A DNA stretch of 64,000 nucleotides, taken from contig NZ_LPVZ01000022.1 of the NCBI RefSeq assembly GCF_001613795.1, forward strand, positions 186,001 to 250,000, in the 5' to 3' direction. The stretch comes from Thalassospira sp. MCCC 1A01148. GTDB lineage: Bacteria > Pseudomonadota > Alphaproteobacteria > Rhodospirillales > Thalassospiraceae. The notes under the pieces are model-generated. The model was not told where the DNA came from, did no database searches, and was given only the letters and a program-made list of their open reading frames with translations. Positions 2,067 to 45,721 of this stretch are shown here, one piece after another. Made by a program: the position numbers and the translations under genes. Within the stretch, counting starts at the first letter, position 1; every line of letters begins with the position of its first letter.

Positions 2067-5000
2067 TCAAACCAAATGCCGCGCCAGATATTCCACCGGA
2101 TGCTGCGGCTTCACACCTTCATAGCGGTCCACCTGACAGCGGCAGGAATAGCCGGTCACCAGCATGTTCTGTGGGCCGGTGGCATCGACCTTCTTTTTCC
2201 AGCTCAGGTCATACAACGCGCGCGAGGTTTCCTGATGGCGGGTTTCATGGCCATAGACACCGGCCATGCCACAACACCCGGTTTTTTCCGTGGCGAGCTT
2301 TAACCCGAACGCCTCAAAGATCTTCTGCCATTTGACACCGACATCGGGGATGGACGTCTTTTCCGTGCAATGGGGGAACAGGCTTGCCGGGGTTTCCGTG
2401 GTGCTGATGTTAACGCCGTTATCAATTTTCGGCGGGGTGAGGCGGCCGTGCTCGATCTCGCCCGCCAGCCATTCATGGAACAGATGCACGCGGTAATCTG
2501 GGCGGTTTGAAAGCCGCTGTTCGTATTCCTGCCGGTAGGTCAGGGTCACGCTGGCCTCGATCCCGATCATGGGCACGCCGGATTTGGCGATTTTGCCCAG
2601 CACGATGTCATTTTGCGTCGCCTGATAATCAAAGCGTTTGAGGAACCCCTTCACATGCATCGCCTTGCCATTCGGGCGGTAGGGCGGCACGAAAACGCGG
2701 TATCCAAGGCGCTGCAAAAGATCGACATGGGCCAGCACCACATGGGTGTCGTAATGCGTGGTAAAGCAATCCTGCACAAGGATCACCGACTTGGCCTTTT
2801 CTTCCGAGCTTAAGGCCTCCAACTCTGCCTGCTTGAACTTGCCAATGCCGCGTTGGCGCAAGGCTGATTTAAGGCTTTGGCGATGGAGTTTCGGCAAATC
2901 GGTCAGGCCGATGAAGCGTTTGAAGATCCAGGGCATCGGCGGGATGGATTGCAGCGCGTTAAACAGCCCCGGCGCCTTTGCCAGAAGCGGGGCGATATTT
3001 TCCAGTGACGCAATCACATGGTCCTTGATCGGGCGTTTATAGCGCGTGTGATAGGTCTCAAGGAACCGGGATTTCATTTCCGGGATATCGACCTTGACCG
3101 GGCATTGCCCCGCACACGCCTTGCACGACAGGCAACCGGCCATCGCCTCATACACGTCATGGGAAAAATCCCGGCCATTGATGACGGCCAAGTCCTTGTT
3201 CATCGGATCGGTGCCGACCGAAAGCTGGCGGATCCATTCGCGGATCATCCCGGCCCGGCCCTTGGGCGAATGCACGCGCGATCGCGTGACCTTATAGGAC
3301 GGGCACATGGCATCCATCAGATCCCAGTTAAAGCACGCCCCGTTGCCGTTACACCGCGTCGCGTTCAGGTATTCATCACGCAACGCATCCTCGATCTGGC
3401 GGTCAAACTGGCCGCGCATCGGGGCTTCGTCGATTGCGGTGATCGGTGTGTTTTTGCTATACGGCGATGCGATCTTGCCGGGGTTAAGCTGCCCTTCGGG
3501 ATCAAACGCCTCCTTGATGCGGCGCAGAACATCATAAAGCTCCGGCCCGAAATAGACGGGGGAGTATTCGCCCCGGAACCCCTTGCCATGTTCGCCCCAG
3601 ATCAGGCCGTTATAGCGTTTGGTAAGCTCCGCCACCGCATCGGAAACGCGCCGGATGCGGGCCTCGTCCTCTTCATCCATCATGTCAAGCAGCGGGCGGA
3701 CATGCAAACACCCGACATCGACATGGCCAAACATGCCGTAATCAAGTCCCTCGGCATCCAAAAGGGCCCGGAACTCGGCAATGAAATCGGCAAGGTTTTC
3801 TGGCGGAACAGCGGTATCTTCGACAAACGGGGTGGCGCGGCGTTTGCCCTCAAGATTGCCCAGAAGCCCCACCGATTTCGCCCGGATCGACCAGATGGCG
3901 GCGATTTGGCCCGGGTCGGTCGCCTGCACAAAGCCGATGGGGGCGTAGTCTTCAGTCGGGTTGGCCTCAAGGTAGGCTTTGAGTTCCGCCTGTTTGGCCG
4001 CCACCTCGGCCTCGCTCTCGCCAACGAACTCGACGACGTTAAAGCCGCGCGTGGGTGTGTTGCTGTTTTCCGTGCCGAGAAGCTTGCCCAGCATGTGCCA
4101 GCTTTCATCCTGCTCGGCCAGTTTCATGACCTTGTCATCGATGCTTTCAATCGCGACGGGGTCAAACTGCACCAGCGTTTTGACGTGACGAAGGGCACTG
4201 TCAAAGCTGTCATAGCGCACGACCGTGACGGCCTTGTGTTTTGGCAGCGGAATGACGCGGAAGGTAATTTCCTTGACCATGCCAAGGCTGCCCTCGGCCC
4301 CGGCAATCAGAAAGGACAGGTTCATGTCCCCGGTGTCAGATACCGCTTCCTTAAGGTTATAGCCCGTAAGCCCCCGGTTCATTTCCGGGAAGGTTGATTT
4401 GATCTGATCCCGCCTTGGCGCGATTTCGTCATGGACCTTTTTATAAAGCTGCCCGACACGATCCGCGCGGTCCATGGTGTCTTTGGCTTCCGTCGCTGTC
4501 ATCGCGCGGGTATTGAAATCCGTGCCGTCGATCAGAACCGTGGTCATGTCATGGATGTAATGGCTGGTTTTGCCATAAATCCGCGATCCCTTGCCCGAAC
4601 TGTCCGATCCGATCATGCCGCCCACCGTGGCGCGGCTCGCGGTCGACACGGCCGGCGGGAAGAAATAGCCGTATGGCTTCAGCCAGGCATTCAACTGATC
4701 AAGCACCACACCGGGCTCGACATGCACAAGGCCACGTTCGGCATCAAAGCCAAGGATATCGTTCAGGTGTTTGGAGGTATCAAGAATGATGGTGTTGTTC
4801 AGCGACTGGCCATTGGTGCCGGTCCCGCCGCCCCGCGGGGTGATTTTGACCTCGGAAAATTTCTCACGGCCCGCAAGCTCCATCACCACATTGATGTCAT
4901 CGCGCGTTCTGGGCTGCAGGACGGCGGTTGGCATCACCTGATAGACGCTGTTATCGGTGGCATTGATCAGCCGGGTCGGGAAATCGGCATGGATTTCACC

Positions 5001-6551: not shown

Positions 6552-6656
6552 GCCGGGGTCGTTTTCGGCCATTAGATATCATTGCTGGCAGATGGTGCGG
6601 TTTGCGACATATCATGACCAGTATGCCGAACATTATGACCAGGTGCAGGAGATGGC

Positions 6657-7751: not shown

Positions 7752-7880
7752 CGTCTTGATCGCGTGGGGGTGACGCGGATGCGTTTTTTATGCCGGTGGC
7801 TGGGGCAGCGCCGTGCAGATTGCAGTTACCCGCAATCCGGCGTAACGTGTTGTCCGTCCCGAACAACGCCACAGAGCATC

Positions 7881-8435
7881 ATGGCAAAAAGCGAACTTGA
7901 AAAAATGCAATCCGGTGACTGGTATTCCTGCCTTGATCCGGAAATCACCGTGTTGCGCCATCGCGCCCTTGAGGCGTGCCATGAGCATAGCGTTCTCTAT
8001 CCGGCGGAGCGCGGCAATATCGGGCCGAAACTGCGCGCGCTGTTTGCCGCTTGCGCGGATGATGTGCGGATCGAGGCGCGGTTTCATTGTGCCTATGGCA
8101 TCAATATCCATTTGGCCGAAGACGTGTTTTTAAATGTCGGCTGTGTGATCCTTGATACGGCACCGGTAAAGATCGGGCGGCATTCGATGCTGGGTCCGAA
8201 TGTGCAGATTTACTGTGCCGATCATCATCGTGATCCGGAGCTCCGCAAGCAGCATCTTGAAATCGCCAAGCCGGTGACGATTGGCGACAATGTCTGGATC
8301 GGGGGCGGGGCGATTATCCTGCCGGGGATCACGATTGGTGATGATGCGATCGTTGGTGCGGGGGCGGTGGTGACGCGCGATGTTGCGGCCGGGAGCAGCG
8401 TTGTTGGTAACCCGGCGCGGGTGTTGCCCCGTTAG
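7881..8435 (+). CDS. maa: maltose O-acetyltransferase
   Basis: A 184-residue hexapeptide-repeat acetyltransferase. The N-terminal Maac segment (KMQSGDWYSCLDPE, residues 7-20) is diagnostic of the Maa/NodL/LacA group. The left-handed beta-helix begins near HCAYGINIHLAEDVFLN, with the catalytic-His region CADHHRDPE and the closing repeats TIGDNVWIGGGAIILPGITI and VVGNPARV. It transfers acetyl groups from acetyl-CoA to the 6-hydroxyl of maltose, glucose or similar sugars. The reading frame is open upstream to 7764, but the ATG at 7881 gives the family-typical length and N-terminus. No obvious operon partner. Confidence 0.88.
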   Translation: MAKSELEKMQSGDWYSCLDPEITVLRHRALEACHEHSVLYPAERGNIGPKLRALFAACADDVRIEARFHCAYGINIHLAEDVFLNVGCVILDTAPVKIGRHSMLGPNVQIYCADHHRDPELRKQHLEIAKPVTIGDNVWIGGGAIILPGITIGDDAIVGAGAVVTRDVAAGSSVVGNPARVLPR

Positions 8436-9233: not shown

Positions 9234-9421
9234 GAGGTGTCCAATCCGGTTTCAATTCATAATAGCATAGCCTACATCGAAATCGCGCCCGACCGAAAGA
9301 GCGAAGGCAATCGCGTGCCGCAAACAAAAAAGACAACCTGCCAGAGGTGGCGCGGTTGCCTTAAGTTGGGACAAACCATTGCTGGATGTCACAGGGTAAG
9401 CGTTAAGCTGGTAAAGCCCGA

Positions 9422-9955
9422 TCAGGCGATATCGTCCGTTGCCGGGCGGCGTTTGCGTCCCGTGATCATGGCGCGCACCAGATTTTCGTGATGACGGAGG
9501 CTGGCCAGCAACACGCCGCCAACATGCAGCAGAACAAGGAACAACAGGCCGTTTGCCAGCGCCTCGTGGGTTTCCTCTACCCACTCGGAACCCCAGAACA
9601 TGGTGGTGGTGTACATCCAGCCGGTCAGAATGCAGCCCGCCATGGCGAGAATGAGGGCGATGATCATCGCCGCGCCGGCCGGGTTGTGGCCAAGATAACG
9701 CGGTTCCGTGCCGCGCAGGATATCGCCAAGATATTTAAGCGTTGCCCGGGGGCTTTTGATGAACTGGGTGAAACGGGCATAACGGGTGCCGATCAGGCCC
9801 CAGATCAGACGCAGTGCAATCAGGCCGCCCGCGGCATAGCCCGCCCAGTGATGCAGGCTGTCCCATTCTTCAGCCGTGACCCAGGCAATGACGAAACTTG
9901 CCGCCAAGCCCCAGTGGAACAGGCGGACAAACGGGTCCCATACTTTGACAGACAT
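9422..9955 (-). CDS. cytochrome b561-family membrane protein
   Basis: A 177-residue, four-helix cytochrome b/b561-type protein (COG3658 style). It starts VKVWDPFVRLFHWGLAASF, where the histidine in helix 1 is a haem ligand; LHHWAGYAAGGLIALRLIWG supplies the second-helix histidine pair, and HEALANGLLFLVLLHVGGV the last. Such proteins carry two b haems and relay electrons between the quinone pool and periplasmic partners. It lies 147 bases downstream of, and on the same strand as, a periplasmic PepSY protein gene and is divergent from a two-component system, a layout in which the regulators usually control the redox pair. The C-terminal tail is basic (GRKRRP). Confidence 0.85.
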   Translation of the reverse strand: MSVKVWDPFVRLFHWGLAASFVIAWVTAEEWDSLHHWAGYAAGGLIALRLIWGLIGTRYARFTQFIKSPRATLKYLGDILRGTEPRYLGHNPAGAAMIIALILAMAGCILTGWMYTTTMFWGSEWVEETHEALANGLLFLVLLHVGGVLLASLRHHENLVRAMITGRKRRPATDDIA

Positions 9956-10102
9956 GATGCGTGCTCCTGACTGTTGAATGCGTTTTCAGATGGCGGGTTC
10001 GAAGAGGCGGCTTTGACCGAAGGCACCCGTGCAGGCAGGCACGGGGCGTGGGGACAGGACAACGGTCAAAGCCGCACTCAGCCGAGGGAGGACCGATTGA
10101 GA

Positions 10103-10405
10103 TCAGTCGTCTTCCTTGACGAGTTCAAAGGTTGACGGGTTGAAATAGGCTTCAACTTTCTTGCCATCGGCCTTGATGGCGTAAACTTCAAAGCAGCCAT
10201 CATCTTCCTTGATCTTGCGGACGTCCCAGCCCTCGGCCGTCAGTTTTTCCTTGAGCGCATCCATGCTCTGCCATTCGGATTTCGGCACGTTGCAATAATC
10301 GTCACTGGCCTGTGCGGTATGCGCCGTCAGGCCAAGGGAGGCAGTGGCAAGGAGCGTTGCAGCAAAACTGCCAAGGGCGGCTTTCTTCAAAACAGTGTTT
10401 TTCAT
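10103..10405 (-). CDS. periplasmic PepSY domain protein
   Basis: A 100-residue exported protein. A signal peptide of about 33 residues ends in AHTAQAS. The mature part is one PepSY-type domain: a helix SMDALKEKLTAEGWDVRKI and the strand pair DGCFEVYAIKADGKKVEAYF, ending FELVKEDD. Two cysteines (in DDYCNVP and DDGCFEV) could form a disulfide. PepSY_2 proteins next to cytochrome b genes are common in proteobacteria, with unclear roles. It is divergent from the response regulator at 10568 across 162 bases, so it is probably a target of that system. Confidence 0.8.
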   Translation of the reverse strand: MKNTVLKKAALGSFAATLLATASLGLTAHTAQASDDYCNVPKSEWQSMDALKEKLTAEGWDVRKIKEDDGCFEVYAIKADGKKVEAYFNPSTFELVKEDD

Positions 10406-10567
10406 GGCTCGGTTCCTTCATAAGATAGGGGTAATGTCATGATCGGTGCCGAGTATGGCGTGCTTCCCTGACAGCAAACTGAACCGGATGTTTTTCACCG
10501 TTCAGCACACTGTCAGGAACGGCCGTTACCCACGGCAGATTGTGCGAAGCTTCGGGAAGAGGTTGGG

Positions 10568-11227
10568 GTGCGTATTCTTCTGGTCGAAGATGAATTGATG
10601 CTGGCAGACGCGGTGCGCGATCATTTACTCGCAAGCGGCGAGGCGGTTGATCACAGTGCAAGTGTGGTCGATGCCGAGATCATGCTGCGCGGGACCAATT
10701 ATGATGTGTTGTTGCTGGACCTTAACCTGCCCGATGGCAAGGGGCTTGATCTGTTGCGCGATCTGCGCCGCCAAGGGTCGGCCACACCATGCATTATCCT
10801 GACCGCGCAGGATCAGATTTCGGATCGGATCGCGGGGCTTAATGCCGGGGCAGATGATTATCTGGTCAAGCCGTTTGATCTGAACGAGTTATCCGCACGT
10901 TTGGCCGCCGTTTCGCGGCGCTATAGCGGCAATCCCAATCCGTTTGTCGAGTTGCAGGGCGGGGTCGAGGTGGACCTTGCCGGGCGGTCGGTTTTGCGGG
11001 GTGGCGAACATATCGATCTGACATCGCGTGAATGGGCGCTGTTTGATCAGATGGTCAAACGGCCGGGCCAGACATTATCAAAGCGCCAGCTTGAAGAAGC
11101 GCTTTATGAATTTGGTGCCGAGATCGAAAGCAACACGGTCGAGGTATATGTCAGCCGCCTGCGCCGCAAGCTTGGCCGCGACGTGATCAAGACCGTGCGC
11201 GGTGTCGGCTATCGGGTTGAGGGATAA
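10568..11227 (+). CDS. OmpR/PhoB-family response regulator
   Basis: A 219-residue two-domain regulator. The receiver has the acidic pair ED (residues 7-8), phospho-acceptor Asp51 in LLLDLNLPDG and Lys101 in YLVKPF. The C-terminal winged helix is of the OmpR type, with LTSREWALFDQMVKRPG and VEVYVSRLRRKLG, closing in the standard VRGVGYRVE. It starts with GTG at 10568, behind a gaagagg ribosome binding site; upstream ATG alternatives would not give the family N-terminus. The stop overlaps the kinase start codon (TAATG), so the two are co-translated. It is closest in style to QseB/PmrA-type regulators. Divergent PepSY and cytochrome b genes are likely targets. Confidence 0.93.
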   Translation: MRILLVEDELMLADAVRDHLLASGEAVDHSASVVDAEIMLRGTNYDVLLLDLNLPDGKGLDLLRDLRRQGSATPCIILTAQDQISDRIAGLNAGADDYLVKPFDLNELSARLAAVSRRYSGNPNPFVELQGGVEVDLAGRSVLRGGEHIDLTSREWALFDQMVKRPGQTLSKRQLEEALYEFGAEIESNTVEVYVSRLRRKLGRDVIKTVRGVGYRVEG

Positions 11228-12636
11228 TGAAGATCAGGGCGCAAAACAGTCTTCAGTTCATTCTGACCAAACGCCTGACCTTAATTGTCGCGGTGTTCTG
11301 GGTGATCGGGGCCCTGTTTGCGGCCTACACGGCGCGCCATGAGATGGAGGAGGGGGCCGATACCGCCCTTGTCGAGACGTCACGGCGGACCTCGACCCTT
11401 ATCATTGATTATCTTGAAAACCATCAGGACGCGGGCGGGATTGTTGTCTTGCCCGAACCGGGCTTTGACGCTGTTCATGATGGTGATGATGATGAGGATA
11501 GCGATCATGACGGTGATGTCGACGATTTCGATGACTTCATGCAGTATCAATTGCGTGATGCAAAGGGTGACGTGCTGCTGCGGTCGCAAAATGCGCCGGA
11601 AACGCCATTTGATGCGCCGCTTGAGCCCGGCTTCAGCGATGGTGATGAGGTTCGTGTCTATACCAGTGTGACCGGCAATGGTGATCTGTTCATGCAAGTG
11701 GCCGAACCGACCGAGCATCGCAATGAAGCGATCATTGAAACCATGGTGTCGCAGTTCACGCCGCTGATTTTCCTGATCCCGGTGACCATTCTTGCGGTGG
11801 TCTATAGCGTGACCCGTGCGCTGGGTCCGGTACGCCGGGTCCGCAACGAGATCGAGGCACGCGGGGAGGGCAACCTGACCCCGATTGCGCAGGACGACCA
11901 GACCGAGGAAATCAACACCATTGTCACGGCGGTTAACCGCTTGATGGCAAAGCTTGAGGCGGCACTCAGTGTCGAGCGCAGCTTTACCGCCAACAGTGCG
12001 CATGAACTGCGCACGCCGATCGCCGTGGCGCTGGCACAAACGCAAAGGCTTCTGGCGGAACTGCCCGAAGGGCACGCGGCCCGAAAACGGGCGGTCCAGA
12101 CGGAAGAGGCGCTTAAACGCCTGTCGCGGTTGTCCGAAAAGCTTTTGCAGCTGGCGCGTGCGGAATCAAGTGGCGGGTTCAGTCCGACCGGACATAATCA
12201 GGAGCTTGGTCCGACGCTTAATCTGGTGATCGAAGACATCCGACGGGCCGGGATGGACGGGGCGGAGATCCGTTCTGGTGCGGAAAATCTGGCAACCCTA
12301 TCGGCCAATATCGACCATGACGCCTTTGCGATTTGCATGCGCAATCTGATTGAAAATGCCCTGAAATATGGCGGGGATGACGAACCCGTCGATATCCGTG
12401 TGGTGGAGGGGCACATCGTGCAAGTCGCAAATGGTGGCGCGCCGGTCAGCCCTGATGAACTGGCGCAACTGACGACCCGCTTCAAACGATCCAGCAACAA
12501 GGCCGATGGATCAGGACTGGGTTTGGCGATTGTCGAGGCGATTGCACGCAATACCAAGGCAGAGCTCAAGCTTTATTCCCCGCGCCCGGATCATGCGGAC
12601 GGCTTCATGGCCGAGCTTCGTTTGCATCAAAGCTAA
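11227..12636 (+). CDS. sensor histidine kinase with EF-hand-like acidic periplasmic loop
   Basis: A 469-residue membrane sensor kinase. The first transmembrane segment is about residues 14-34 and the second about 177-196 (LIFLIPVTILAVVYSV), framing a periplasmic domain. HAMP-like residues follow, then the H-box SAHELRTPIAVALA, the N-box MRNLIENALKYGG and the G-box GSGLGLAIVEAIA. In the periplasmic domain, residues 81-104 are very acidic and contain DSDHDGDVDDFD (residues 91-102), a full match to the EF-hand loop pattern D-x-D-x-D-G-x-[ILV]-x-x-x-[DE]. This suggests a divalent-cation sensor, functionally reminiscent of the PhoQ acidic patch, but cation identity is inference. It overlaps the response regulator by one base. 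Confidence 0.92.
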   Translation: MKIRAQNSLQFILTKRLTLIVAVFWVIGALFAAYTARHEMEEGADTALVETSRRTSTLIIDYLENHQDAGGIVVLPEPGFDAVHDGDDDEDSDHDGDVDDFDDFMQYQLRDAKGDVLLRSQNAPETPFDAPLEPGFSDGDEVRVYTSVTGNGDLFMQVAEPTEHRNEAIIETMVSQFTPLIFLIPVTILAVVYSVTRALGPVRRVRNEIEARGEGNLTPIAQDDQTEEINTIVTAVNRLMAKLEAALSVERSFTANSAHELRTPIAVALAQTQRLLAELPEGHAARKRAVQTEEALKRLSRLSEKLLQLARAESSGGFSPTGHNQELGPTLNLVIEDIRRAGMDGAEIRSGAENLATLSANIDHDAFAICMRNLIENALKYGGDDEPVDIRVVEGHIVQVANGGAPVSPDELAQLTTRFKRSSNKADGSGLGLAIVEAIARNTKAELKLYSPRPDHADGFMAELRLHQS

Positions 12637-12754
12637 GCGAACAAACAGCCCCCATAAAACGTCTGACCAGCAATGCAGCCCCGGAAAACCGGGTTGAAGA
12701 TTTGCGATCATGGCGCGGGGTTACCGTTTTATGTTTTGAAATCGAAACGTCATA

Positions 12755-12774
12755 AATGGCAGTTTTCCGCCATT
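12755..12774 (+). promoter_or_regulatory. hairpin upstream of the LacI-type gene
   Basis: An 8-base stem with one mismatch (AATGGCAG with CCGCCATT, loop TTTT) lies directly 5' of the operator-like site at 12774. It has no T-run. It may be part of a compound operator. Confidence 0.3.
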
Positions 12775-12787
12775 GTAAACGTTTCAA
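12774..12787. promoter_or_regulatory. LacI/GalR-type operator candidate
   Basis: TGTAAACGTTTCAA has the perfect core AAACGTTT with the central CG that typifies LacI/GalR-family operators. It lies about 85 bases upstream of the LacI-type gene and would let the regulator control itself and the ABC operon behind it. Confidence 0.5.
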
Positions 12788-12872
12788 ATGTTCATAAAAC
12801 GGAAACACAAGTGTTATCGAAGTGACTTCTTCGTTGGGTATGGTTTGGCCCGTCGAAGGAGTTTTGTTGCAG

Positions 12873-13919
12873 ATGACACCCAAGCCCACCATGCGCACAG
12901 TCGCCGCCAAGGCCGGCGTTTCAATCGCAACCGTATCACGGGTGATCAATTGCCCTGATGAGGTTCCGACTGAAACGGTTGAGCGCGTGCGTGAGGCCAT
13001 GGCGTATCTGAAATATCGGCCAAACATGAATGGCCGACGCCTTAAAATGGCGCAGACGCGGTCTGTCGGGGTTTTGGTGCCAACCATGGCCAACCCGGTT
13101 TTTGCAACATCGGTCCAGGGGATCGAGCAGGCCGCCCATGAAGATGGTCTGACCGTTCTTTTGACGTCATCGGAATACGACCCCGAACGCGAATTGGACG
13201 CGGTTTCGACATTGCTGAATAACCGGGTGGACGGGTTGATCCTGACACTGGCCAATGCCGATGATAATCGCGTGATCGACCTTTTGATCAGCGAAAACAT
13301 CCCGTTCGTGTTGCTGTTTAACCAGCCAAGCCGAACCGATGTGGCGTCCATCAGTGTCGATAACGCCAAGTCGGCCTATGACATCACGCAGGCGATGATT
13401 GCAAAGGGGCATCGCAAGCTTGCGATGGTGGCCGGCCATTTTGAAAGTTCGGACCGTTCGCGCCAGCGTTATGACGGGTTCTGTCAGGCCATTAACGACG
13501 CAAACCAACAGGACGCGGCGGCGATGGCGGCCCCGCGCCTGTGTCAGGTCGGGTTTGGCGAGACCGATCTTGAGGGCATTCTTGAAAGTTTTCTGACCGG
13601 GCCGGATGCGGTCACGGGTCTTGTCTGTTCGACTGACATGCTGGCGATTGCCGCAATCAGCGCATGCCGCACCTATGGGCTTTCGGTCCCGGGGGATGTG
13701 TCAGTCGGGGGCATTGACGGAATTGCGGTGGGTGGGCTGATCACACCGAAACTGTGTTCGGCCGTTCAACCCACCCAGAAGATGGGCCAGCAGGCGCTTG
13801 CATTCCTGCTGGGCCTGATACGGGGGCAGACAGAACCGCAAAGTTTGCTTTTGCCCCATCAACTTAGCACGGGTGAGTCGATCGGACCCGCCCGGCATCA
13901 GTCATCACCCCGATTATAG
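12873..13919 (+). CDS. LacI-family transcriptional regulator
   Basis: A 348-residue LacI/GalR regulator. The N-terminal helix-turn-helix TMRTVAAKAGVSIATVSRVI and hinge helix region KMAQTRSVGVLVPTMANPVF are canonical, followed by a periplasmic-binding-protein fold with VDGLILTLAN and the C-terminal DVSVGGIDGI. The frame is open upstream to 12822, but the family N-terminus fits ATG at 12873; TTG at 12867 is an alternative with better spacing to the gaagga site. The stop is only 11 bases before the ABC substrate-binding protein start, so the regulator is probably the first gene of the operon it controls. Its effector is likely the imported phosphodiester or a breakdown product (inference). Confidence 0.9.
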   Translation: MTPKPTMRTVAAKAGVSIATVSRVINCPDEVPTETVERVREAMAYLKYRPNMNGRRLKMAQTRSVGVLVPTMANPVFATSVQGIEQAAHEDGLTVLLTSSEYDPERELDAVSTLLNNRVDGLILTLANADDNRVIDLLISENIPFVLLFNQPSRTDVASISVDNAKSAYDITQAMIAKGHRKLAMVAGHFESSDRSRQRYDGFCQAINDANQQDAAAMAAPRLCQVGFGETDLEGILESFLTGPDAVTGLVCSTDMLAIAAISACRTYGLSVPGDVSVGGIDGIAVGGLITPKLCSAVQPTQKMGQQALAFLLGLIRGQTEPQSLLLPHQLSTGESIGPARHQSSPRL

Positions 13920-13930
13920 GGAGATCAAAA

Positions 13931-14941
13931 GTGCGTTTCAAACAACTTGTCATGGGTGTGAGCCTTGCGGTTGCTGCCACGGCGGCACAGCCTGCCTTCG
14001 CTGATGAAGCAGCGATTTGCTATAACTGCCCGCCGGAATGGGCTGACTGGGGCGGACAGCTCAAGAATATCTCGAAAGATCTGGGCATTGATGTCCCGCA
14101 GGATAACAAAAACTCGGGCCAGACCCTGTCGCAGCTTTTGGCGGAAAAAGAAAACCCGGTTGCCGATGTCGCCTATTACGGTGTGTCTTTTGGCATCAAG
14201 GCCAATGAAGCCGGTGTTGTTCAGAACTACAAGCCGACCAATTTCGATGCGATCCCGGATGGTCTGAAAGACCCGAACGGCGCATGGTTTGCGATCCATT
14301 CCGGCACGATTGGCCTGTTTGTCAATGTTGACGCGCTTGACGGTGCGCCGGTCCCGCAAAGCTGGAATGACCTTTTGAAGCCGGAATATGCGGGCATGGT
14401 CGGGTATCTTGACCCATCAAGCGCCTTTGTCGGCTATGCCGGTGCGGTTGCGATCAACCGTGCGATGGGTGGATCACTTGATGACTTCACCCCGGGTATC
14501 GAGTTCTTCAAGAAGCTCAAGGAAAACGATCCGATCGTGCCGAAACAGACCGCCTATGCACGTGTTCTGTCGGGCGAAATTCCGATCCTGCTTGATTACG
14601 ATTTCAATGCCTATCGCGCGAAATACAAAGACAGTGCGAATGTTGAATTCGTCATCCCGTCCGAGGGTACGGTCACGGTGCCGTATGTCATGAGCCTGGT
14701 TGCCAACAACCCGCATGGCGAGAACGGCAAAAAGGTTCTGGATTACGTGATGTCGGACAAAGGCCAGTCCCATTGGGCAAATGCCTTCCTGCGTCCGGTG
14801 ATCCCGAGTGCAATGTCGCCGGAAGCGGCATCCAAGTTCCTGCCGGAAGCCGACTATGCCCGTTCCCAGCCGGTTGATTACGCCAAGATGGCAACCGTAC
14901 AGACCGGGTTCTCTGACCGTTATCTGGCCGAGGTACGTTAA
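13931..14941 (+). CDS. ABC transporter periplasmic substrate-binding protein
   Basis: A 336-residue exported binding protein of the iron/putrescine/2-aminoethylphosphonate type (cluster D fold). A signal peptide of about 24 residues ends AAQPAFA. The mature N-terminus AICYNCPPEWADWGG includes a CxxC pair; ligand-site segments include HSGTIGLFVN and QTAYARVLSGEIPILLDYD. It starts with GTG at 13931 behind a tagggag ribosome binding site. It is followed directly by two permease genes, an ATPase and a GpdQ-like phosphodiesterase. The combination points to a phosphorylated small molecule, such as a glycerophosphodiester or aminophosphonate, as ligand, rather than iron or polyamine; this is inference from context. 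Confidence 0.88.
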   Translation: MRFKQLVMGVSLAVAATAAQPAFADEAAICYNCPPEWADWGGQLKNISKDLGIDVPQDNKNSGQTLSQLLAEKENPVADVAYYGVSFGIKANEAGVVQNYKPTNFDAIPDGLKDPNGAWFAIHSGTIGLFVNVDALDGAPVPQSWNDLLKPEYAGMVGYLDPSSAFVGYAGAVAINRAMGGSLDDFTPGIEFFKKLKENDPIVPKQTAYARVLSGEIPILLDYDFNAYRAKYKDSANVEFVIPSEGTVTVPYVMSLVANNPHGENGKKVLDYVMSDKGQSHWANAFLRPVIPSAMSPEAASKFLPEADYARSQPVDYAKMATVQTGFSDRYLAEVR

Positions 14942-14948
14942 GGTGTCG

Positions 14949-15848
14949 ATGGACCTTGATTTGAAGGAGGGGCGTTCGCGCCCTTCCTTGCTTTCATCCT
15001 TTTTAACCCCGCGCGCAGCGGCTGCAAGCCCGGCGATCCTGACGGTCTTGCTAATCCCGGGGCTTGTGATTGTTGCGGCGTTCTTTTTGATCCCGCTTGC
15101 GCGTGTTGCGGTCGAAGTCGGCAACGGGCCGGAGGGATGGGGGACGTATCTTCTGATCCTGACCAATGCGCGCTATCTGGAAAGTCTGATCCAGACGCTT
15201 GCGATGTCGGCAGGCGTTACGGTGATGGCGTTGGTCCTGTGTGCGATTGTCGGGCTGTTTTTGGTGCGCAACAGATTTGCCGGACGCAGCATTTTGATCG
15301 GGACATTGACCTTGCCGCTGTCCTTTCCGGGCACGGTGGTTGGCTTCATGGTGATCATGCTGGCCGGACGCCAAGGCGTGATTGGCGGGCTGACCGACGC
15401 GGCGTTCGGGTCGAAGCTTGTCTTTGCCTATGACATTGCGGGTCTTTTTATCGGCTATCTGTATTTTTCGATCCCGCGCGTGATCTTGGCGGTGATGGCA
15501 TCTGCCGAGAAGCTTGACCTGCAGCTTGAAGAAGCGGCGCGGTCGCTTGGTGCATCGCGGTTTCGTGTGATTTGCGACGTGATTTTACCCGGCCTCATGC
15601 CCGGCCTGATTTCATCAGGGGCCATTTGCTTTGCAACGGCGATGGGCGCGTTTGGCACGGCCTTTACGCTGGCGACCGATATCGATGTGTTGCCGATGGT
15701 GATCTATACCGAGTTTACGCGGAACGCCAATATTCCGGTGGCGGCCGCCCTTAGCATTGTGCTGGGCCTGATCACCTGGGCGTGTCTGGCTGCGGTGCGC
15801 AGCTTTACCGGCGAGGGCAAAAGCCTGCCGGTGCGCGGAGGGGCATGA
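14949..15848 (+). CDS. ABC transporter permease 1
   Basis: A 299-residue inner-membrane permease with about six to seven hydrophobic segments, beginning with LTVLLIPGLVIVAAFFLIPL. The EAA loop that contacts the ATPase is visible as EEAARSLGASRFRVICDVIL. The open frame runs upstream into the binding-protein gene, but ATG at 14949 (with aagg just 5') or GTG at 14943 are the sensible starts, 1 to 7 bases after the upstream stop. Order in the operon (binding protein, permease, permease, ATPase) is that of PotABCD/PhnSTUV-type importers. Confidence 0.88.
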   Translation: MDLDLKEGRSRPSLLSSFLTPRAAAASPAILTVLLIPGLVIVAAFFLIPLARVAVEVGNGPEGWGTYLLILTNARYLESLIQTLAMSAGVTVMALVLCAIVGLFLVRNRFAGRSILIGTLTLPLSFPGTVVGFMVIMLAGRQGVIGGLTDAAFGSKLVFAYDIAGLFIGYLYFSIPRVILAVMASAEKLDLQLEEAARSLGASRFRVICDVILPGLMPGLISSGAICFATAMGAFGTAFTLATDIDVLPMVIYTEFTRNANIPVAAALSIVLGLITWACLAAVRSFTGEGKSLPVRGGA

Positions 15849-23255: not shown

Positions 23256-23876
23256 ATGAATAGTCGAGCCGCGCAACGTCAACAAACCCGTCAGAAAATC
23301 CTTGATGCCGCCAGAGATTGCTATGGGGCAGGATCATTTGACGCCGTTTCTACGCGTGAAGTTGCCCAACGGGCCGGTGTCGCCGAAGGTACGATATTCA
23401 ATCACTTTCCAACCAAGGAAGAACTGGTGATCAGTTGTGTCGGCGATCAGCTTGCCGAGGCGATTGAGAAGGGGCTTTACACGATGGACCCGGAATGGTG
23501 CTTCGTTGACAAGGTGATGCATGTTGCCTCCTATCGCTTCACACAGGTCGGACTTAATCCCGGTTTGTGGCAGGTGATCATGCAGCAGGTCGTGTTTTCC
23601 CCCCGCAAGGGTGCGGTCCAAGCCATCATGGAAAGCAGCGGCCTGATTGCCGCCATTCAGGCCCTGATCGAGGAAGCGCAGCTTTCGGGGGAGCTTAATC
23701 CCGATTTGGCACCGCAACTGATTCGGAAAACCCTGATGGCATTGTTCTTGTTCACCATCCACGAGCATTTCAGCACGCAGAATTTTGATTGCCAGGATAT
23801 GTGCGCAACCTTGCGCGAGCTGCTTGAAACGCAGGTCAAGGGGCTTTGGGCGTGTGAACCGGAACTGGCGGCGTAA
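23256..23876 (+). CDS. TetR-family transcriptional regulator
   Basis: A 206-residue TetR regulator. The N-terminal helix-turn-helix is canonical: QQTRQKILDAARDCYGAGSF, TREVAQRAGVAEGTIFNHFP and TKEELVISC. The C-terminal ligand domain is helical and not recognisable. ATG at 23256 is preceded by an aggggtcaag ribosome binding site; the frame extends upstream into the operator and is unlikely to be translated there. It likely represses itself through the tandem palindromes at 23217-23241. The EamA transporter gene upstream on the same strand is a possible second target, though no copy of the site is seen there. Confidence 0.88.
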   Translation: MNSRAAQRQQTRQKILDAARDCYGAGSFDAVSTREVAQRAGVAEGTIFNHFPTKEELVISCVGDQLAEAIEKGLYTMDPEWCFVDKVMHVASYRFTQVGLNPGLWQVIMQQVVFSPRKGAVQAIMESSGLIAAIQALIEEAQLSGELNPDLAPQLIRKTLMALFLFTIHEHFSTQNFDCQDMCATLRELLETQVKGLWACEPELAA

Positions 23877-23887
23877 GCGCCGGGATA

Positions 23888-23964
23888 CGCCTTATTCGCC
23901 GATGAGATGCAGGGTGACCTTGCGGTGATGGGGGGGCACGGCGATGTTCGAACAGATAGATGCC
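23888..23964 (-). pseudogene. displaced 3'-end fragment of yjbQ (left flank of insertion)
   Basis: These 77 bases match 25711-25786, the working 3' end of yjbQ, at all but about four positions. Read on the minus strand they encode the same C-terminal residues (GIYLFEHRRAP), but one extra base in a C-run breaks the frame before the end. It is a gene remnant, the left boundary of the SIR2 insertion. Confidence 0.8.
23888..23964. repeat. left direct repeat flanking the SIR2 cassette
   Basis: Direct repeat partner of 25711-25786 in the same orientation; about 73 of 77 positions agree. The pair encloses 1.75 kb of AT-richer DNA and looks like the attL/attR of a small integrated element. No integrase is present inside. 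Confidence 0.75.
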
Positions 23965-24139
23965 TCGGCAGGTGTTAACTATTTTCCTGCAAACGTTGGA
24001 TCAGAGCAAACGAGCTTTGTTACGTAAAGGTAGTGACTTATTGGTTTAGAAAATTCTTGTTAATCACGATGTTGAAAGGCCATACTTCTTTCGTGCTCGT
24101 TTTAGTTGTGTTTCTTGGAAGTCGCGTGGGAAGAAAAGT

Positions 24140-25663
24140 ATGCTGATTGATGATGTTGTAGCAGGTTTAGATAACCAAGGGCCTAGGAGCTATTATGCCT
24201 TTGAGACGTTCGTCCAGAACCTGCTGTCACACCACATTGAGAAGCAGAATAAAGCGTTTGAGTTCGGCAACAATCCATTTGACAGGTACGATGCATTCGC
24301 TCCAGTTGGTTTCGACGACTTTGATGGGCCAGTACTCTTCGAGATAAAATTCAATTTATTAAGTTTAGTACGATTATCTCATCTGCGCAGAATACTTGAA
24401 AACTATATTGAGATAAATGCGAAGAAAAGATTTGATCACTTGATTATTGTCTCTGCAAAGAGAGTTCCTGAAAAAATATTTCATGAGCTAGATTTTATAA
24501 GGGAGGAGTCTGATTTTCCGTTTGAGGTTCATATTTGGGGGCCAGAAGATTTAAATAAAATTGCAAATAAAAATAAAAAATTTGCTGTAAGTATTGCGGA
24601 TAAGTTGTTCTCTCTTAGGATTAATACTGCAATTTCCAAGGTCGTAAAGGATTGGAAATCAGAGAGAGATGAAATTCTTAGTAACCTGAAATCAAGATAT
24701 GAAAAAGGTCAGTTTTCCCTTTTCTTGGGCGCTGGTGTTTCGAGCAGTGCTGGTATGCCAGACTGGAATACTTTGTTGAACTCATTGTTTGTGAGTTACC
24801 TGACAAAAGAGTTCAATAACGATGGTGCAATTGGAGATCAAGATATTGGCGACCTTGTTTCGCGATTGAATAACATAAATGAACCTTCTGCATTGATGGC
24901 TGCTCGTTATCTAAGGAAAGGACTTTCTAAAAGAGAAGGAGAAGCAAAAGACTTTATCGAAGCTGTGACCCGTAATTTGTATAAGCTACGTGCCGGAGAT
25001 GTACCTACCGCGTCAGCTTTAATTAAATCGATTTCTTCGATGTGCCAACCACGTCGAACAGGCGCAAAAGTAAAGTCTGTTGTAACTTATAACTTTGACG
25101 ATTTGTTGGAGCGGCAGCTAGAAGGCGATAACATTCTGCACCGCTCAATTTACACTGATACAGAAAGTTACGATCCCGATGAGCTTCCTGTTTATCATGT
25201 TCACGGTTTCTTGCCAGAGAACCGAAAAGATTATCAGGGCTTAGAGAACTCTACCTTAGTGTTTTCTGAAGAGGGCTATCACCAAATTTATTCAGAATCC
25301 TACCATTGGTCAAATTTGGTGCAATTAAACTCTTTCAGAGAGAACTGCTGTTTGATGATTGGCCTTTCTATGACCGACCCAAATTTGCGTCGCTTATTAG
25401 ACATATCTTCAAAAAACATTGAACGTAGTAAGCATTTTGCATTTATGAAGCGTTTATCCTCTGAAGAGTTCTGCTATGAGACAGGCGAGAAAGGGGGGAG
25501 GAAGAAGGCGGTCAGGAATGCTGATGCGGCAGAAAAGTTTTTGCAGCGACATCACGCACTCAATGAAGAGCTAATGAGAGAACTGGGTGTCACCATTGTA
25601 TGGTATGAGGACTACGATGAAATTCCTCAGTTCATTAGAGAAGTTGTGAGATACGAAGCTTAA
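24140..25663 (+). CDS. predicted PD-(D/E)XK nuclease - SIR2 fusion (candidate antiphage protein)
   Basis: A 507-residue two-domain protein. Residues 15-150 look like a restriction-endonuclease fold of Mrr type: Glu22 in an early helix, Asp62, then Glu68-x-Lys70 in VLFEIKF, a LIIVSAK strand and a WGPEDLNKI end. Residues 190-430 form a SIR2-like NAD-binding domain: FLGAGVSSSAGMPDW (GAG at 197-199), TYNFDDLLE (Asn318, Asp320), the catalytic-His region YHVHGF (His353/355), and MIGLSMTDPNLRRLL. SIR2 domains in bacterial defence proteins typically destroy NAD on infection. Low GC and the flanking duplicated yjbQ ends indicate horizontal insertion. The role is inferred; nuclease and NADase activity are both predicted from residues only. 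Confidence 0.8.
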   Translation: MLIDDVVAGLDNQGPRSYYAFETFVQNLLSHHIEKQNKAFEFGNNPFDRYDAFAPVGFDDFDGPVLFEIKFNLLSLVRLSHLRRILENYIEINAKKRFDHLIIVSAKRVPEKIFHELDFIREESDFPFEVHIWGPEDLNKIANKNKKFAVSIADKLFSLRINTAISKVVKDWKSERDEILSNLKSRYEKGQFSLFLGAGVSSSAGMPDWNTLLNSLFVSYLTKEFNNDGAIGDQDIGDLVSRLNNINEPSALMAARYLRKGLSKREGEAKDFIEAVTRNLYKLRAGDVPTASALIKSISSMCQPRRTGAKVKSVVTYNFDDLLERQLEGDNILHRSIYTDTESYDPDELPVYHVHGFLPENRKDYQGLENSTLVFSEEGYHQIYSESYHWSNLVQLNSFRENCCLMIGLSMTDPNLRRLLDISSKNIERSKHFAFMKRLSSEEFCYETGEKGGRKKAVRNADAAEKFLQRHHALNEELMRELGVTIVWYEDYDEIPQFIREVVRYEA

Positions 25664-25710
25664 CTTTGAGAATAGCGACCTTTTCTCTACAGCAAGTAGC
25701 TAACGTGTTT

Positions 25711-25786
25711 CGCCTTATTCGCCGATGAGATGCAGGGTGACCTTGCGGTGATGGGGCGCGCGGCGATGTTCGAACAAATAGATGCC
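25711..25786. repeat. right direct repeat flanking the SIR2 cassette
   Basis: This copy overlaps the intact 3' end of yjbQ (stop at 25715-25717) and matches 23888-23964. The gene body lies to its right, so this copy is the one that restores yjbQ after insertion. Confidence 0.75.
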
Positions 25787-26137
25787 CTGCCACGTTCCAA
25801 GGACGGCCCGGCCACTCGATACCGGAATGGTCAGCGACACATCGGTCAGGGCTGATTTGATGTGGGCGGGCATGTCATCGGGCCCTTCGCAGGTATGGCG
25901 ATAGAGGCTGGGGTTTTCCTGCACCAATTGCCCGAAGAAGGTTTGGAGATCAAAGCGCACATCCGGATCGGCATTTTCCTGAATGGTCAGGCTGGCCGAG
26001 GTGTGACGGACAAAGATGGTCAGCTGGCCGCGTTCAAGACCGGTCTGGTTCACCCATGACTGGATCGGTTCGGTGACTTCATAAAGCCCCTGACCGCTGG
26101 TGGTGATTTCAAGGGTAATCTGGTCTTGTGAAAGCAT
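25715..26137 (-). CDS. yjbQ: YjbQ / UPF0047 family protein
   Basis: A 140-residue protein of the UPF0047 (YjbQ) family, matching the 138-residue E. coli protein in length. Family segments include GLYEVTEPIQSWV, IFVRHTSASLTIQENADPDV, HIKSALTDVSLTIPVSSGR and GTWQGIYLFEHRRAPHHRKV. Some homologues have weak thiamin-phosphate-synthase activity; the physiological role is unsettled. ATG at 26137 is chosen for length; the open frame continues upstream to a GTG at 26260 without a convincing ribosome binding site. Its 3' end is duplicated on the far side of the SIR2 gene, so this gene was the insertion target and was restored. Confidence 0.85.
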   Translation of the reverse strand: MLSQDQITLEITTSGQGLYEVTEPIQSWVNQTGLERGQLTIFVRHTSASLTIQENADPDVRFDLQTFFGQLVQENPSLYRHTCEGPDDMPAHIKSALTDVSLTIPVSSGRAVLGTWQGIYLFEHRRAPHHRKVTLHLIGE

Positions 26138-26312
26138 CTGACACGTCTTGACATAGGGTGGGCCGCTTTCGTTGATGGTAAATCCCAAGGGATTGAATAA
26201 CAAGCTCTTCACGAAATCAGTGCGTTGCAGGCTGCTTCTCAACGAAGCCATATTTGCCACAATATCGCCACTTGACGCACTGAGCGCGCCGGAATATCGA
26301 TTTCGCGGTCAC

Positions 26313-42065: not shown

Positions 42066-43766
42066 CTAGCTTGCGGCGCTTTTGCGCAGGTTATCGAGGA
42101 AGGCTTCGACCGCGTCATCAAGGGCAACGGCTTCGGACACCAGCTTTTCGGCCGTGCTGGCGAGCTGATTGGTGCCTGATGACACTTTGCCAGCGTTGCT
42201 GTTGACGGTTTCGATGCGCTCGGACACTTCGCGTGTCCCGTCGGCTGCCTGTTGGACACTGCGCGAGATTTCACCGATGGCAGCGTGCTGTTCCTCGACT
42301 GCTGCGGCAATCGCGGTCGAGCTGTCTGCCACCTGGGCAATGGTTTCGGAAATCCGGCGGATGGCGTCAACCGCCTCGGTGGTTTCGTTCTGAACCGCAA
42401 GGATCTGTTGATTGATTTCCTCGGTCGCCTTGGCGGTCTGATTGGCGAGGTTTTTGACTTCGCTTGCCACAACGGCAAAGCCTTTGCCAGCATCACCAGC
42501 ACGGGCGGCCTCGATGGTGGCGTTAAGGGCGAGGAGGTTGGTCTGTTCGGCGATGTCGCCGATCAGGCTTGCGACGTCGCCGATACGCTGGGCGGCTTCG
42601 GACAAACCTGTGACCGTTTCATTGGTGCGCGTGGCTTCGTCATTGGCGCGGTTTGCAATAGAGGCAGAATTTGCAATCTGCTGGGCGATTTCATCAGAAG
42701 ATGCCGAGAGTTCCTCTGTTGCGGCCGAGACCGTTTGAACATTGCTTGATGTTTGGGTCGTTGCGGTCGATACCGCACCGGTCAGTTCGCTGTTCATGTT
42801 GGTCGCGTTGCGCATTTCGTCGGTCGCGGCTTGCATTTCCTTGATCGAGTTGGAGATCGAGTTGATCAATCCCTTAACCTGCTTATCAAGAGAATCCGCC
42901 ATTTCCATCAGGGCTTTACGCTGTTTCTCTTCGGCTTCTTCTTCTAGCGCGCGCTGTTTGTCCTGAAGCTTGAGGTTTTCAAGTGCCTGTTCGCGGAAGG
43001 AGACCACGGTGCGCGCCATGTCACCGACTTCATCCTTGCGTTGTTGGCCTTCGATACTGCCTTCAAGGTCGCCGCTTGAAATGACACGCATGCGTTCAGC
43101 AAGGGTTTTCAGTGCGCCGGTGATGTCGCGCCCGATGGCAAGACCGACAAAGATCATGACCAGCAGGATCACACCGCCAATTATGACGACAAAGGTTGCC
43201 TGTTCACGGAAGGCTGCATCGACATCATCAATATAGATGCCTGTGCCAATGATCGAGCCCCACGGAAGTGGTTCCGCATAGGAGAGTTTTTCAAATGTGA
43301 GATTTTCATCCTCGCCGGGTTTTGGCCAGTGATAGGACGAAAAACCACCGCCGGGCTGGTTGCCGGCCGCAATCAGTTCACGGATGAAGTAGTTACCCTG
43401 GGAATCCTGCGCATTGTTCAGGCTTTGGCCAACAAGTGAAGGCTTGGCACCGTGCATTTCGGTCATGCCATCTGTGGCAAAGACAAAGAAGTAACCGATG
43501 TTGCCGTCATATTTGCCTGCGGCGGCAACCTCGTAGAACTGACTGATTGCTTCTTCCTGTGTCAGAGTGCCGGCATCTGCCTTGTCCTGATAGAATTGTG
43601 CGATTGAGGTGATGTAGTTGGTGGTTGAACGAATCTTGTCTTTGCGGTCTTCGAGCATTGAGTCGCGAAGGGTCGAGAGCTGCAGGGCCCCGATCACGAT
43701 CACACCCAATAAAGCGATGACTGACAAGACAACGATCTTGTAGCCGATTTTCATGTTGCCAAGCAT
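42066..43766 (-). CDS. methyl-accepting chemotaxis protein with Cache-type sensor (copy 1)
   Basis: A 566-residue chemoreceptor. Transmembrane segments are at about residues 10-28 and 190-210 ([20 protein letters not shown]), enclosing a periplasmic single-Cache domain with [19 protein letters not shown] and the [10 protein letters not shown] and [10 protein letters not shown] motifs. A HAMP region, a long coiled coil and the signalling tip [20 protein letters not shown] follow, with an [10 protein letters not shown] helix. sCache receptors often sense carboxylates or amino acids. No CheR-binding pentapeptide is seen at the C-terminus. It is paralogous to, and the same length as, the gene at 44021; its own promoter lies in the 254-base gap. 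Confidence 0.94.
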
Positions 43767-44020: not shown

Positions 44021-45721
44021 TTAGTCGGTTGCGCGTTTACGCAGGTCGGCAAGGAAGTTTTCGACAGCTTCGTCAAGGGACTGTGCTTCTTCGACCAGTT
44101 TTTCCGCCGAATGGGCAAGCTGACTGGTCCCAGACGACACACGACCGGCATTTTCATTGACCGTTTCGATGCGCTGGGAGACTTCGCTGGTGCCGTCAGC
44201 AGCTTGTTGAACGTTACGCGAAATCTCGCCGATTGCGGCATGCTGTTCTTCAACGGCTGCGGCAATGGCGGTAGAGCTGTCAGCGACCTGGGCAATGGTT
44301 TCGGAAATCAGGCGGATCGCCTCGACCGCTTCGCCCGTTTCATTCTGAACCGAGAGGATCTGCTGGTTAATCTCCTCGGTCGCCTTGGCGGTCTGGTTGG
44401 CAAGGTTTTTGACCTCGCTTGCCACCACGGCGAAGCCTTTGCCTGCGTCACCGGCACGCGCGGCCTCAATCGTGGCATTCAGCGCCAGAAGGTTGGTCTG
44501 CTCGGCGATATCCCCGATCAGCTTTGCGACATCACCAATTTTCTGTGCCGCATCGGCCAGGCCCGTGACGGTCTTGTTGGTGCGCGTGGCTTGTTCGTTG
44601 GCCTGATTGGCGACCTGGGCGGATTGGGAAATCTGCTGGGCGATTTCATCACTGGACGCGGTCAGTTCCTCGGTCGCGGCTGACACGGTCTGTACGTTGG
44701 TCGATGTCTGCGTGGTGGCAGATGCCACAGCAGCAGAGAGCGAGCTGTTGGTGTTGCTGGCTTCTTCCATCGTGGTAGTGGCCTTCTTCATATCCGTAAT
44801 GGAACCACCAATCGCGCGGATGAGGCCCTTGACCTGACTTTCAAGGCTGTCGGCCATATCGGTAATGTCCTGACGGCGTTGCTTATCTGCCTGGGCTTCC
44901 AGTTCTTTCTGGCGGTTCTGAAGTGCCTGATTTTCCAGCGCCTGTTCACGGAAGGCGACAACCGTGCGGGCCATATCACCCACTTCGTCACCACGTTCCT
45001 GACCTTCGATCTCGCCTTCAAGCTTGCCGCCGGCGATTTCGGTCATTCGGGCCGAAAGTTTATTCAGTCCACCGGTAATATTACGCCCGATCGCAAGTGA
45101 GAACACGATCATCAGGGCAACAACAATTGCAATGATCACCAGCAAAAAGACCGCCTGTTCCCAGAACGCGGCATCAACATCGTCAATATAGATACCGGTG
45201 CCGATGGCGTGGCCCCAGGGGAGCATGGCGGAATAGGACAATTTCTCGAACAGTTGGTCTTCGGGCTCACCGGGCTTTGGCCAGTAATATGAGAAGAAAC
45301 CGCCGTCGGGGTTTTGCGCGGCCGCAAGAAGATCCTGCACAATAAAGTTGCCGGTCGGGTCTTTGACCTGACTCATATCCGTGCCGTTCAGCGACGGTTT
45401 GGCGCCGTGCAACTTGTTAATGCCGTTTTCGTCATAGGCAAAGAAATAGCCAGTTCCCTCATCAAACCTTGCCGCTGTGCTCCAGCGGTAAAATTCGTCC
45501 GTTGCTTCTTCTTGTGTAAGCTCGCCGCTGCCGACGCGATCCTGATAGGACTGGGCAGCCGTCACCAGCATTGAAACAGTTGCCTGAATTTTGTCTTTGC
45601 GGTCTTCAAGCATCCCGTTGCGCAACGTTTGAAGCTCAAGTGCTGCAATCGCCAGCAAGGCAATCAGAGACAGCAAGGATAAACTGGCGACTTTCTGGCC
45701 AATTCGTATGTTCTGAAGCAT
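44021..45721 (-). CDS. methyl-accepting chemotaxis protein with Cache-type sensor (copy 2)
   Basis: A 566-residue receptor with the same plan as copy 1: N-terminal helix ([19 protein letters not shown]), a sCache domain with [20 protein letters not shown] and [20 protein letters not shown], a second helix ([20 protein letters not shown]), HAMP, and a signalling domain nearly identical to copy 1 ([20 protein letters not shown]). The sensor domains differ much more than the signalling tips, as expected for duplicated receptors that took up different ligands. ATG at 45721 is chosen because it aligns with copy 1; a 15-residue upstream extension is open but not supported. Confidence 0.94.

Follow-up and report, generated by a model that had tools for sequence, protein, structure and literature searches.

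A lone SIR2-family gene beside an orphaned yjbQ 3' end in Thalassospira: a likely recombination scar

How single defense genes that carry no mobility gene of their own enter bacterial chromosomes is the question raised by a 64,000-nucleotide stretch of the genome of Thalassospira sp. MCCC 1A01148 (contig NZ_LPVZ01000022.1, positions 186,001 to 250,000; this whole stretch is termed the window, and its numbering is used below). In it, a lone SIR2-family gene stands between two copies of the 3' end of yjbQ. A plain and testable answer would be one-sided recombination, whereby the incoming DNA brings its own gene end, the gene stays whole, and the orphaned end of the resident gene remains behind the new cargo.

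A preliminary description of the locus had reported two direct repeats of about 77 bases, with roughly four differences, flanking about 1.75 kb of AT-richer DNA, the right copy being the real end of yjbQ and the left one a frame-broken version of it. Measurement bears this out. The left copy (positions 23888-23964, minus strand, 77 bp) and the right copy (25711-25786, minus strand, 76 bp) both repeat the end of yjbQ in direct orientation; they align over 77 columns at 94.8% identity and differ by three substitutions and one 1-base indel. The DNA between them (23965-25710, 1,746 bp) has a GC content of 40%, compared with 55.4% for the remainder of the window, a value below 45% being reached by 4 of 250 overlapping tiles of the same size. 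The right copy comprises the functional end of an intact yjbQ (25715-26260, minus strand, stop codon at 25715-25717) and the 4 bp past its stop codon, where the repeat has its edge. The gene belongs to UPF0047 and matches the NCBIfam model TIGR00149 (E 1.5e-41), which bears the name 'secondary thiamine-phosphate synthase'; its conserved part begins near 26137, and matches in 27 other genomes of the genus start at residues 14-42. The left copy is made up of the 4 bp beyond the stop, the stop codon, and 70 bp of the gene end, and one extra base breaks the yjbQ frame in it. As judged from the alignment and from synteny, it lies in the ancestral position, beside an intact and likewise syntenic TetR-family regulator (23256-23876, plus strand; PF00440, E 6.9e-16). 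In 508 kb of surveyed DNA (the window, 27 same-genus yjbQ loci, and one further stretch of the own genome), no other pair of direct repeats is 40 bp or longer, 90% or more identical, and no more than 6 kb apart, and a search of the own genome for a third copy of the yjbQ end found none, only ten short matches at E 0.15 or worse; chance is therefore excluded as the origin of the pair.

The single open reading frame of at least 60 amino acids between the copies encodes a SIR2-family protein of 507 amino acids (24140-25663, plus strand; Pfam SIR2_2, PF13289, E 3.9e-18), laid out as an N-terminal domain (about residues 1-170) and a SIR2 NADase-like domain (about residues 180-500). Its predicted structure (mean pLDDT 82.7) finds its best fold matches in ThsA and KomC and also matches DSR2, and the SIR2 domain resembles these three proteins by sequence as well. 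SIR2_2 was found in all 33 aligned members, as were the asparagine of the TYNFDD motif (N318) and the second histidine of the HVHG motif (H355), both invariant and both presumably catalytic residues of the SIR2 domain. The window protein differs from ThsA, KomC, and DSR2 in its N-terminal domain (pLDDT 85.9), which is weakly like restriction endonucleases (best match EcoT38I, E 0.012, probability 0.92). The fold search with this domain gave nothing at E 0.001 or better, no Pfam family was found for this part of the window protein, and none of the NCBIfam or PADLOC models among the matches listed for the protein covers its full length. The gene is a probable phage-defense gene. Its product would most likely act alone, as an NAD-degrading abortive-infection protein, a defensive function that we infer; the orientation and spacing of neighboring genes vary across the 32 homolog loci listed, as would be in keeping with a protein that needs no partner. 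Three of ten neighbor proteins of the homologs that were scanned against Pfam have no family, and the remaining neighbors include a HerA-type ATPase, an HNH/DnaJ-type protein, RTX repeats, and metabolic enzymes.

Homologs of the protein occur at 51 loci in genome contigs, in two viral contigs, and on one Klebsiella plasmid, the last at 67.5% identity over the full length. The closest in genome contigs are those of Alteromonas marina (75%, over residues 240-506 only) and Marinomonas sp. TW1 (69%), followed by those of Aeromonas taiwanensis (63%) and Acinetobacter tandoii (62%). The full protein was found in none of the other 28 same-genus genomes. One of these (G021) encodes a relative with 38% identity over residues 173-504, located on a different contig between genes that by eye resemble LysR and GST, with flanking direct repeats absent, and two more (G019 and G007) yielded weak matches (E 2.5e-4 and 7.6e-4, respectively). 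In a sample of the class (385 genomes, two of them of the same genus), the protein was detected at E 1e-20 solely in the genome from which the window derives. A search for transposon ends found no inverted repeat of at least 20 nt with both arms inside 23965-25710. The ends of the insert appear faintly inverted by eye (GTTAACTA/TAGCTAAC), but an integron cassette at a secondary site was considered and rejected, given that the SIR2 stop codon is only 47 bp from the right copy and that the left repeat folds no better than chance (z 0.85).

The gene yjbQ is present in 28 of 29 same-genus genomes. In 21 of the 27 other genomes, TetR lies at most 90 bp from yjbQ with nothing between them, and this arrangement represents the empty site. 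Five of the 27 have no TetR match and show different neighbors at this place (named by eye), and one, a sister species (G006), carries different cargo between TetR and yjbQ. Both predictions of the preliminary description, namely a single yjbQ end joined to TetR in strains without the insert and other cargo at the identical point in some relative, are thus borne out, in support of an insertion of one gene at the end of yjbQ, and the arrangement is not fixed in all relatives. The SIR2 protein has no match at this position in the 27 relatives and the insert is lineage-specific. A second full yjbQ end was found in none of the 27 other genus loci, only the truncated end in G006 and matches of 14-29 bp. 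The suggestion that the yjbQ end marks a possible defense hotspot was not supported, since a SIR2 gene occurs there in 1 of 28 genus loci (the window) and the cargo of G006 encodes a 391-aa protein without a Pfam family. The yjbQ locus is nonetheless plastic. As separate observations on the surrounding DNA, a gap of about 1.8-2.1 kb separates EamA from TetR in 18 of the 22 relatives that have both (for example, L039 12481-14348) and is absent in the window genome, the stretch from EamA to yjbQ turns over within the genus, and the window itself contains two adjacent stretches of 1.3 kb in direct orientation (42076-43372 and 44031-45327) that are 71% identical.

The left copy occupies the place that the yjbQ end has in relatives and is therefore taken to be the old end, and the right copy, accordingly, to have been brought with, or made by, the insertion. 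The insertion probably, although with considerable room for doubt, arose by homology-facilitated illegitimate recombination (HFIR), a process described in Acinetobacter, Pseudomonas stutzeri, and Streptococcus pneumoniae; the same reservation applies to the donor and the crossover point, which are reconstructed along with the route. A linear fragment from a close relative, with a yjbQ 3' end and a convergent SIR2 gene behind it, would have entered the cell and paired with the resident yjbQ, crossing over by ordinary homologous recombination. At the other end of the fragment, an illegitimate joint to the resident yjbQ would have formed some 70 bp ahead of the stop codon, the proposed position being 23964/23965. 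Read along yjbQ, the resident gene body would then be followed by the incoming end, the SIR2 gene, the displaced resident end, and TetR. On this reading the left copy belongs to the resident allele, as its displaced end, the right copy would have come in with the SIR2 gene, and the orphan end, freed from coding, may later have acquired its frame-breaking base.

Several lines of evidence favor this origin. An old 3' end orphaned in its ancestral place and an insert free of any recombinase are what HFIR would leave, and both are observed. The empty site in 21 of 27 relatives also favors HFIR, as does the combination of an insert with no integrase and a gene for which no clear use as an attachment site was found. 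Read in the frame of yjbQ, the copies are distinguished by three substitutions (TTG/CTG, CGC/CGT, and GCG/GCC), each of them synonymous, as would fit a pair of alleles that both worked until one of them was displaced; had one copy merely drifted, 24-29% of random changes would be synonymous and the P value for such an outcome is 0.013-0.024, from three sites only. Other considerations weigh against HFIR. Neither a donor of the window insert nor any strain of the same species was found. The window yjbQ is closest to one clade throughout (90-100% identity per 60-bp bin), with no foreign tract or mosaic visible, so that under HFIR the fragment would have to stem from a near relative. Three substitutions are few. 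The crowding of the differences in the inner part of the repeat would also suit an attachment site with a crossover near the stop codon, and a site-specific element could equally account for a repeat edge only 4 bp past the stop. HFIR is, moreover, rare in the laboratory (PMC5361080). The competence families DprA and ComEC are present in the own genome, but the same families were positive in 11 and 10, respectively, of 14 control genomes including E. coli, so that this result says little.

The proposal draws further on the G006 locus (L046), where a multi-lineage scar of the same geometry occurs in the same place. This locus comprises an orphaned, truncated yjbQ end, the other cargo, and a yjbQ of which the last ~120 bp are foreign. 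It was compared with same-genus loci in tiles of 150 bp, the lineage groups being those drawn in this analysis from pairwise identities. From 9401 to 11350, 12 of 13 tiles are 93-99% identical to the G005 type (L053), which is the own lineage of G006, and the remaining tile is 85.5% identical. From 11351 to 13300, the best match is G022 (L038) in 12 of 13 tiles, and the tract closes with a yjbQ 3' end that is truncated and likewise of G022 type. At the joint are six bases (GATGCG) common to the G022-type yjbQ and the TetR of a third group, and past the joint lies the TetR 3' end of that third group (L056, 93%). Nine tiles within the cargo of about 1.5 kb are without a match in the genus loci. 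In bins of 60 bp counted from the stop codon, the yjbQ of G006 resembles the third group at 98 and 97%, then the G022 group at 97 and 90% (the next group reaching 88% in the latter bin), and then its own lineage at 97, 92, and 98%. Overall, positions 11351-15250 form a three-lineage mosaic around the 391-aa repeat protein between TetR and yjbQ. No recombinase was recognized in the cargo, of which this protein is the longest open reading frame; a lectin identity for the cargo was dropped, the protein having no Pfam family.

The geometry of the G006 locus is that of the window, and its scar has the form of HFIR. In the simplest reading, a third-group fragment consisting of a TetR end, the cargo, and a yjbQ end would have entered a chromosome of G022 type, with homologous crossover within yjbQ on one side and joining at the six shared bases on the other, by which the resident yjbQ end would have been displaced. 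The whole arrangement would later have reached the G006 lineage through ordinary recombination. The scar is compound and more than one event must therefore be assumed, which counts against the proposal; its likely parents can nonetheless be read from the sequence.

Whether the repeat geometry accompanies the SIR2 family elsewhere was examined across its homologs. Of 54 homolog loci, nine were left out (L083, L089, L090, L113, and L116-L120) for cut-off flanks or as weak relatives, and 46 loci (window included) were scanned, with flanks of 2.5 kb and a cut-off of E 0.001, for direct repeats on either side of the gene. Such repeats were found at 11 of the 46 loci versus 1 of 138 mismatched pairs, a control that preserves neither base composition nor paralogy within one genome; with flanks widened to 8 kb, a scan that lacked a control had given 14 of 49. 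Among the 11, the repeats of the window and of L112 are gene ends and those of L080, L096, and L104 are multi-copy repeats, L068 has a repeat of 75% identity, and direct repeats at E 0.001 were also recorded at L077, L078, L086, L093, and L101. No flanking repeat was found at 35 of the 46 loci, a result that counts against HFIR, and the repeat geometry is therefore no fixed property of the SIR2 family.

The locus most like the window in this respect, L112, also favors HFIR, since a distant SIR2 homolog there shows the same geometry with both gene ends in frame. It is a 4.2-kb contig of a Prevotellaceae MAG in which the SIR2 homolog stands between gene-end copies at 416-595 and 2496-2677 (182 bp, 82% identity) that correspond, by eye, to the 3' end of a convergent thioredoxin-like gene. 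The left copy keeps its frame and stop codon over 39 codons at 74% amino-acid identity; between the copies dN is 0.18 and dS 0.40, and 11 of 23 differences fall at third codon positions (P 0.11), values that would suggest constraint. A search for the corresponding empty site gave a partial match in 1 of 60 other genomes.

Homologs in other settings were noted in passing. At L068, the SIR2 homolog lies by genes that by eye are portal/terminase-like genes of a P2-type prophage, and in this phage-like contig it stands between repeats of 157 bp with 75% identity (4634-4787 and 7881-8035). At L104 (4374-9531, a Thermoanaerobaculia MAG) and L096 (276-3395, Paenibacillus), the homologs are found in what look by eye like arrays of integron attC repeats; the core triplets are non-canonical, and one copy in L104 folds above chance (z -3.55), two others giving z values of -0.33 and -1.60. 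At L080 (Chryseobacterium indologenes AA5), repeats of about 70-75 bp (6574-6649, 7796-7869, and 9482-9554) with a hairpin of the CTCCGAAGTC-GACTTCGGAG type flank the SIR2 gene and the gene preceding it, as in a cassette-like array.

An alternative that we regard as unlikely is that the insert is what remains of an integrative element that targeted the end of yjbQ and carried its own copy of that end, and that either lacks its integrase through later loss or was mobilized in trans. In e14 and phage 21, which reside at icd, the element carries its own copy of the gene end and so restores the gene. The window resembles elements of the e14/icd type in its restored gene and its long, imperfect repeat, and the duplicated gene end and the repeat limit 4 bp beyond the stop are what such an element would produce. 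The first 42 bp of the copies are identical and all four differences fall further inside, confined to the final 35 of the 77 columns (P about 0.04), as would also be expected of an attachment site. The window differs from such elements in that no integrase is present, the SIR2 gene being the only open reading frame of at least 60 amino acids between the copies, and in that no element family was found at yjbQ. In a search of the own genome restricted to the Phage_integrase family, three genes exceed the cut-off, and all three are on other contigs. The lack of a third yjbQ end in the genome likewise speaks against an element. In the class, the last 45 residues of YjbQ were matched at E 0.01 in 78 of 289 genomes, and only the window's own genome (G000) gave more than one match; the 77 others, 7 of which match weakly (E above 1e-4), contain no second match. 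The frame-broken left copy was itself detected in this search, so that such repeats are visible to it. The preliminary description had recognized here the geometry of an element that integrates into a gene end; the gene-end duplication stands, and an integrase-type element is what these results do not support.

Mobile-element records add one point in favor of an integrative element. Matches to the YjbQ end occur in 7 phage records and 42 plasmid records, and three viral contigs encode it. By eye, one of these (L151) has an integrase at a tRNA-like sequence and another (L152) resembles a Mu-type phage inserted in yjbQ. In the third, a Bacteroidota-like contig (L153, 2654-4551), yjbQ is followed just downstream by a convergent gene that resembles a tyrosine recombinase, which is one hint that yjbQ ends can serve as integration sites. 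No second yjbQ end was found in the 20-kb record of L153, which may be a fragment, nor in L151, searched with the L153 end only. Against the alternative, no viral contig matches a yjbQ end of the type found in the genus, and no publication combining yjbQ, an integrase, and a genomic island was found among the literature matches listed.

It is rather improbable that insertion of the SIR2 gene duplicated the resident 77 bp and that the left copy then drifted. Long target duplication was reportedly observed at restriction-modification genes in Helicobacter by Nobusato et al. in 2000, and insertion of such genes with long target duplication is also said to have been treated by Furuta in 2010. The outward form of the window is the same: a defense gene between long direct repeats of host sequence, with no recombinase. 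The cargo is defense-like, as are the restriction-modification genes for which 'insertion with long target duplication' is described (PMC3031569; PMC1643837). Furthermore, in the genus alignment the two copies share a TTA stop codon and GATGAG, a combination absent from all other 27 rows. However, a left copy free to drift would not be expected to differ by synonymous substitutions only, an argument that involves just the three sites considered above. The copies also differ by four events, about as many as separate the right copy from its counterpart in the nearest species (4-6 in 72 bp), and the class of long target duplications is itself without an established mechanism. The 'target duplication' of the preliminary description is thus doubtful, since the copies resemble two separately evolved functional alleles and G006 exhibits a route by HFIR. 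In this, and in carrying a SIR2 gene and not a restriction-modification system, the window departs from the described cases. A misjoining of repeat and insert during assembly is highly improbable, for although the genome is a draft of 24 contigs, the copies differ at four places and so are not one collapsed sequence, and the insert lies inside a contig of 256,685 bp with flanks syntenic to those of relatives.

HFIR remains the preferred explanation, and precedent for it is available. For Vibrio T6SS arrays and for Rhs genes, HFIR that leaves displaced 3' ends has been proposed (PMC5361080), which favors the same route here, and small variable segments of E. coli have also been discussed in terms of HFIR (PMC2884548). 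The likeness lies in a displaced, orphaned 3' end behind new cargo and in a pairing of a homologous end with an illegitimate one, the latter showing microhomology in G006. The difference lies in the anchor, here yjbQ, and in the cargo, here a lone SIR2 gene. The window locus is likely a new instance of a known recombination scar, and G006, in a sister species, illustrates its likely mechanism.

Tentatively, displacement of 3' ends by lopsided recombination may be a general, enzyme-free route by which single defense genes come to lie beside core genes, and part of what has been termed 'insertion with long target duplication' of restriction-modification genes may really consist of two alleles. 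The cases of displaced 3' ends possibly comprise two species of one genus, one of them with other cargo, and one Bacteroidota contig. If this is true, orphan gene ends would be datable scars able to name the donor lineage. Should they be common beside solo defense genes, they would provide a searchable signature, and where 'target duplication' surrounds restriction or SIR2 genes, a new interpretation as two juxtaposed alleles would become open.
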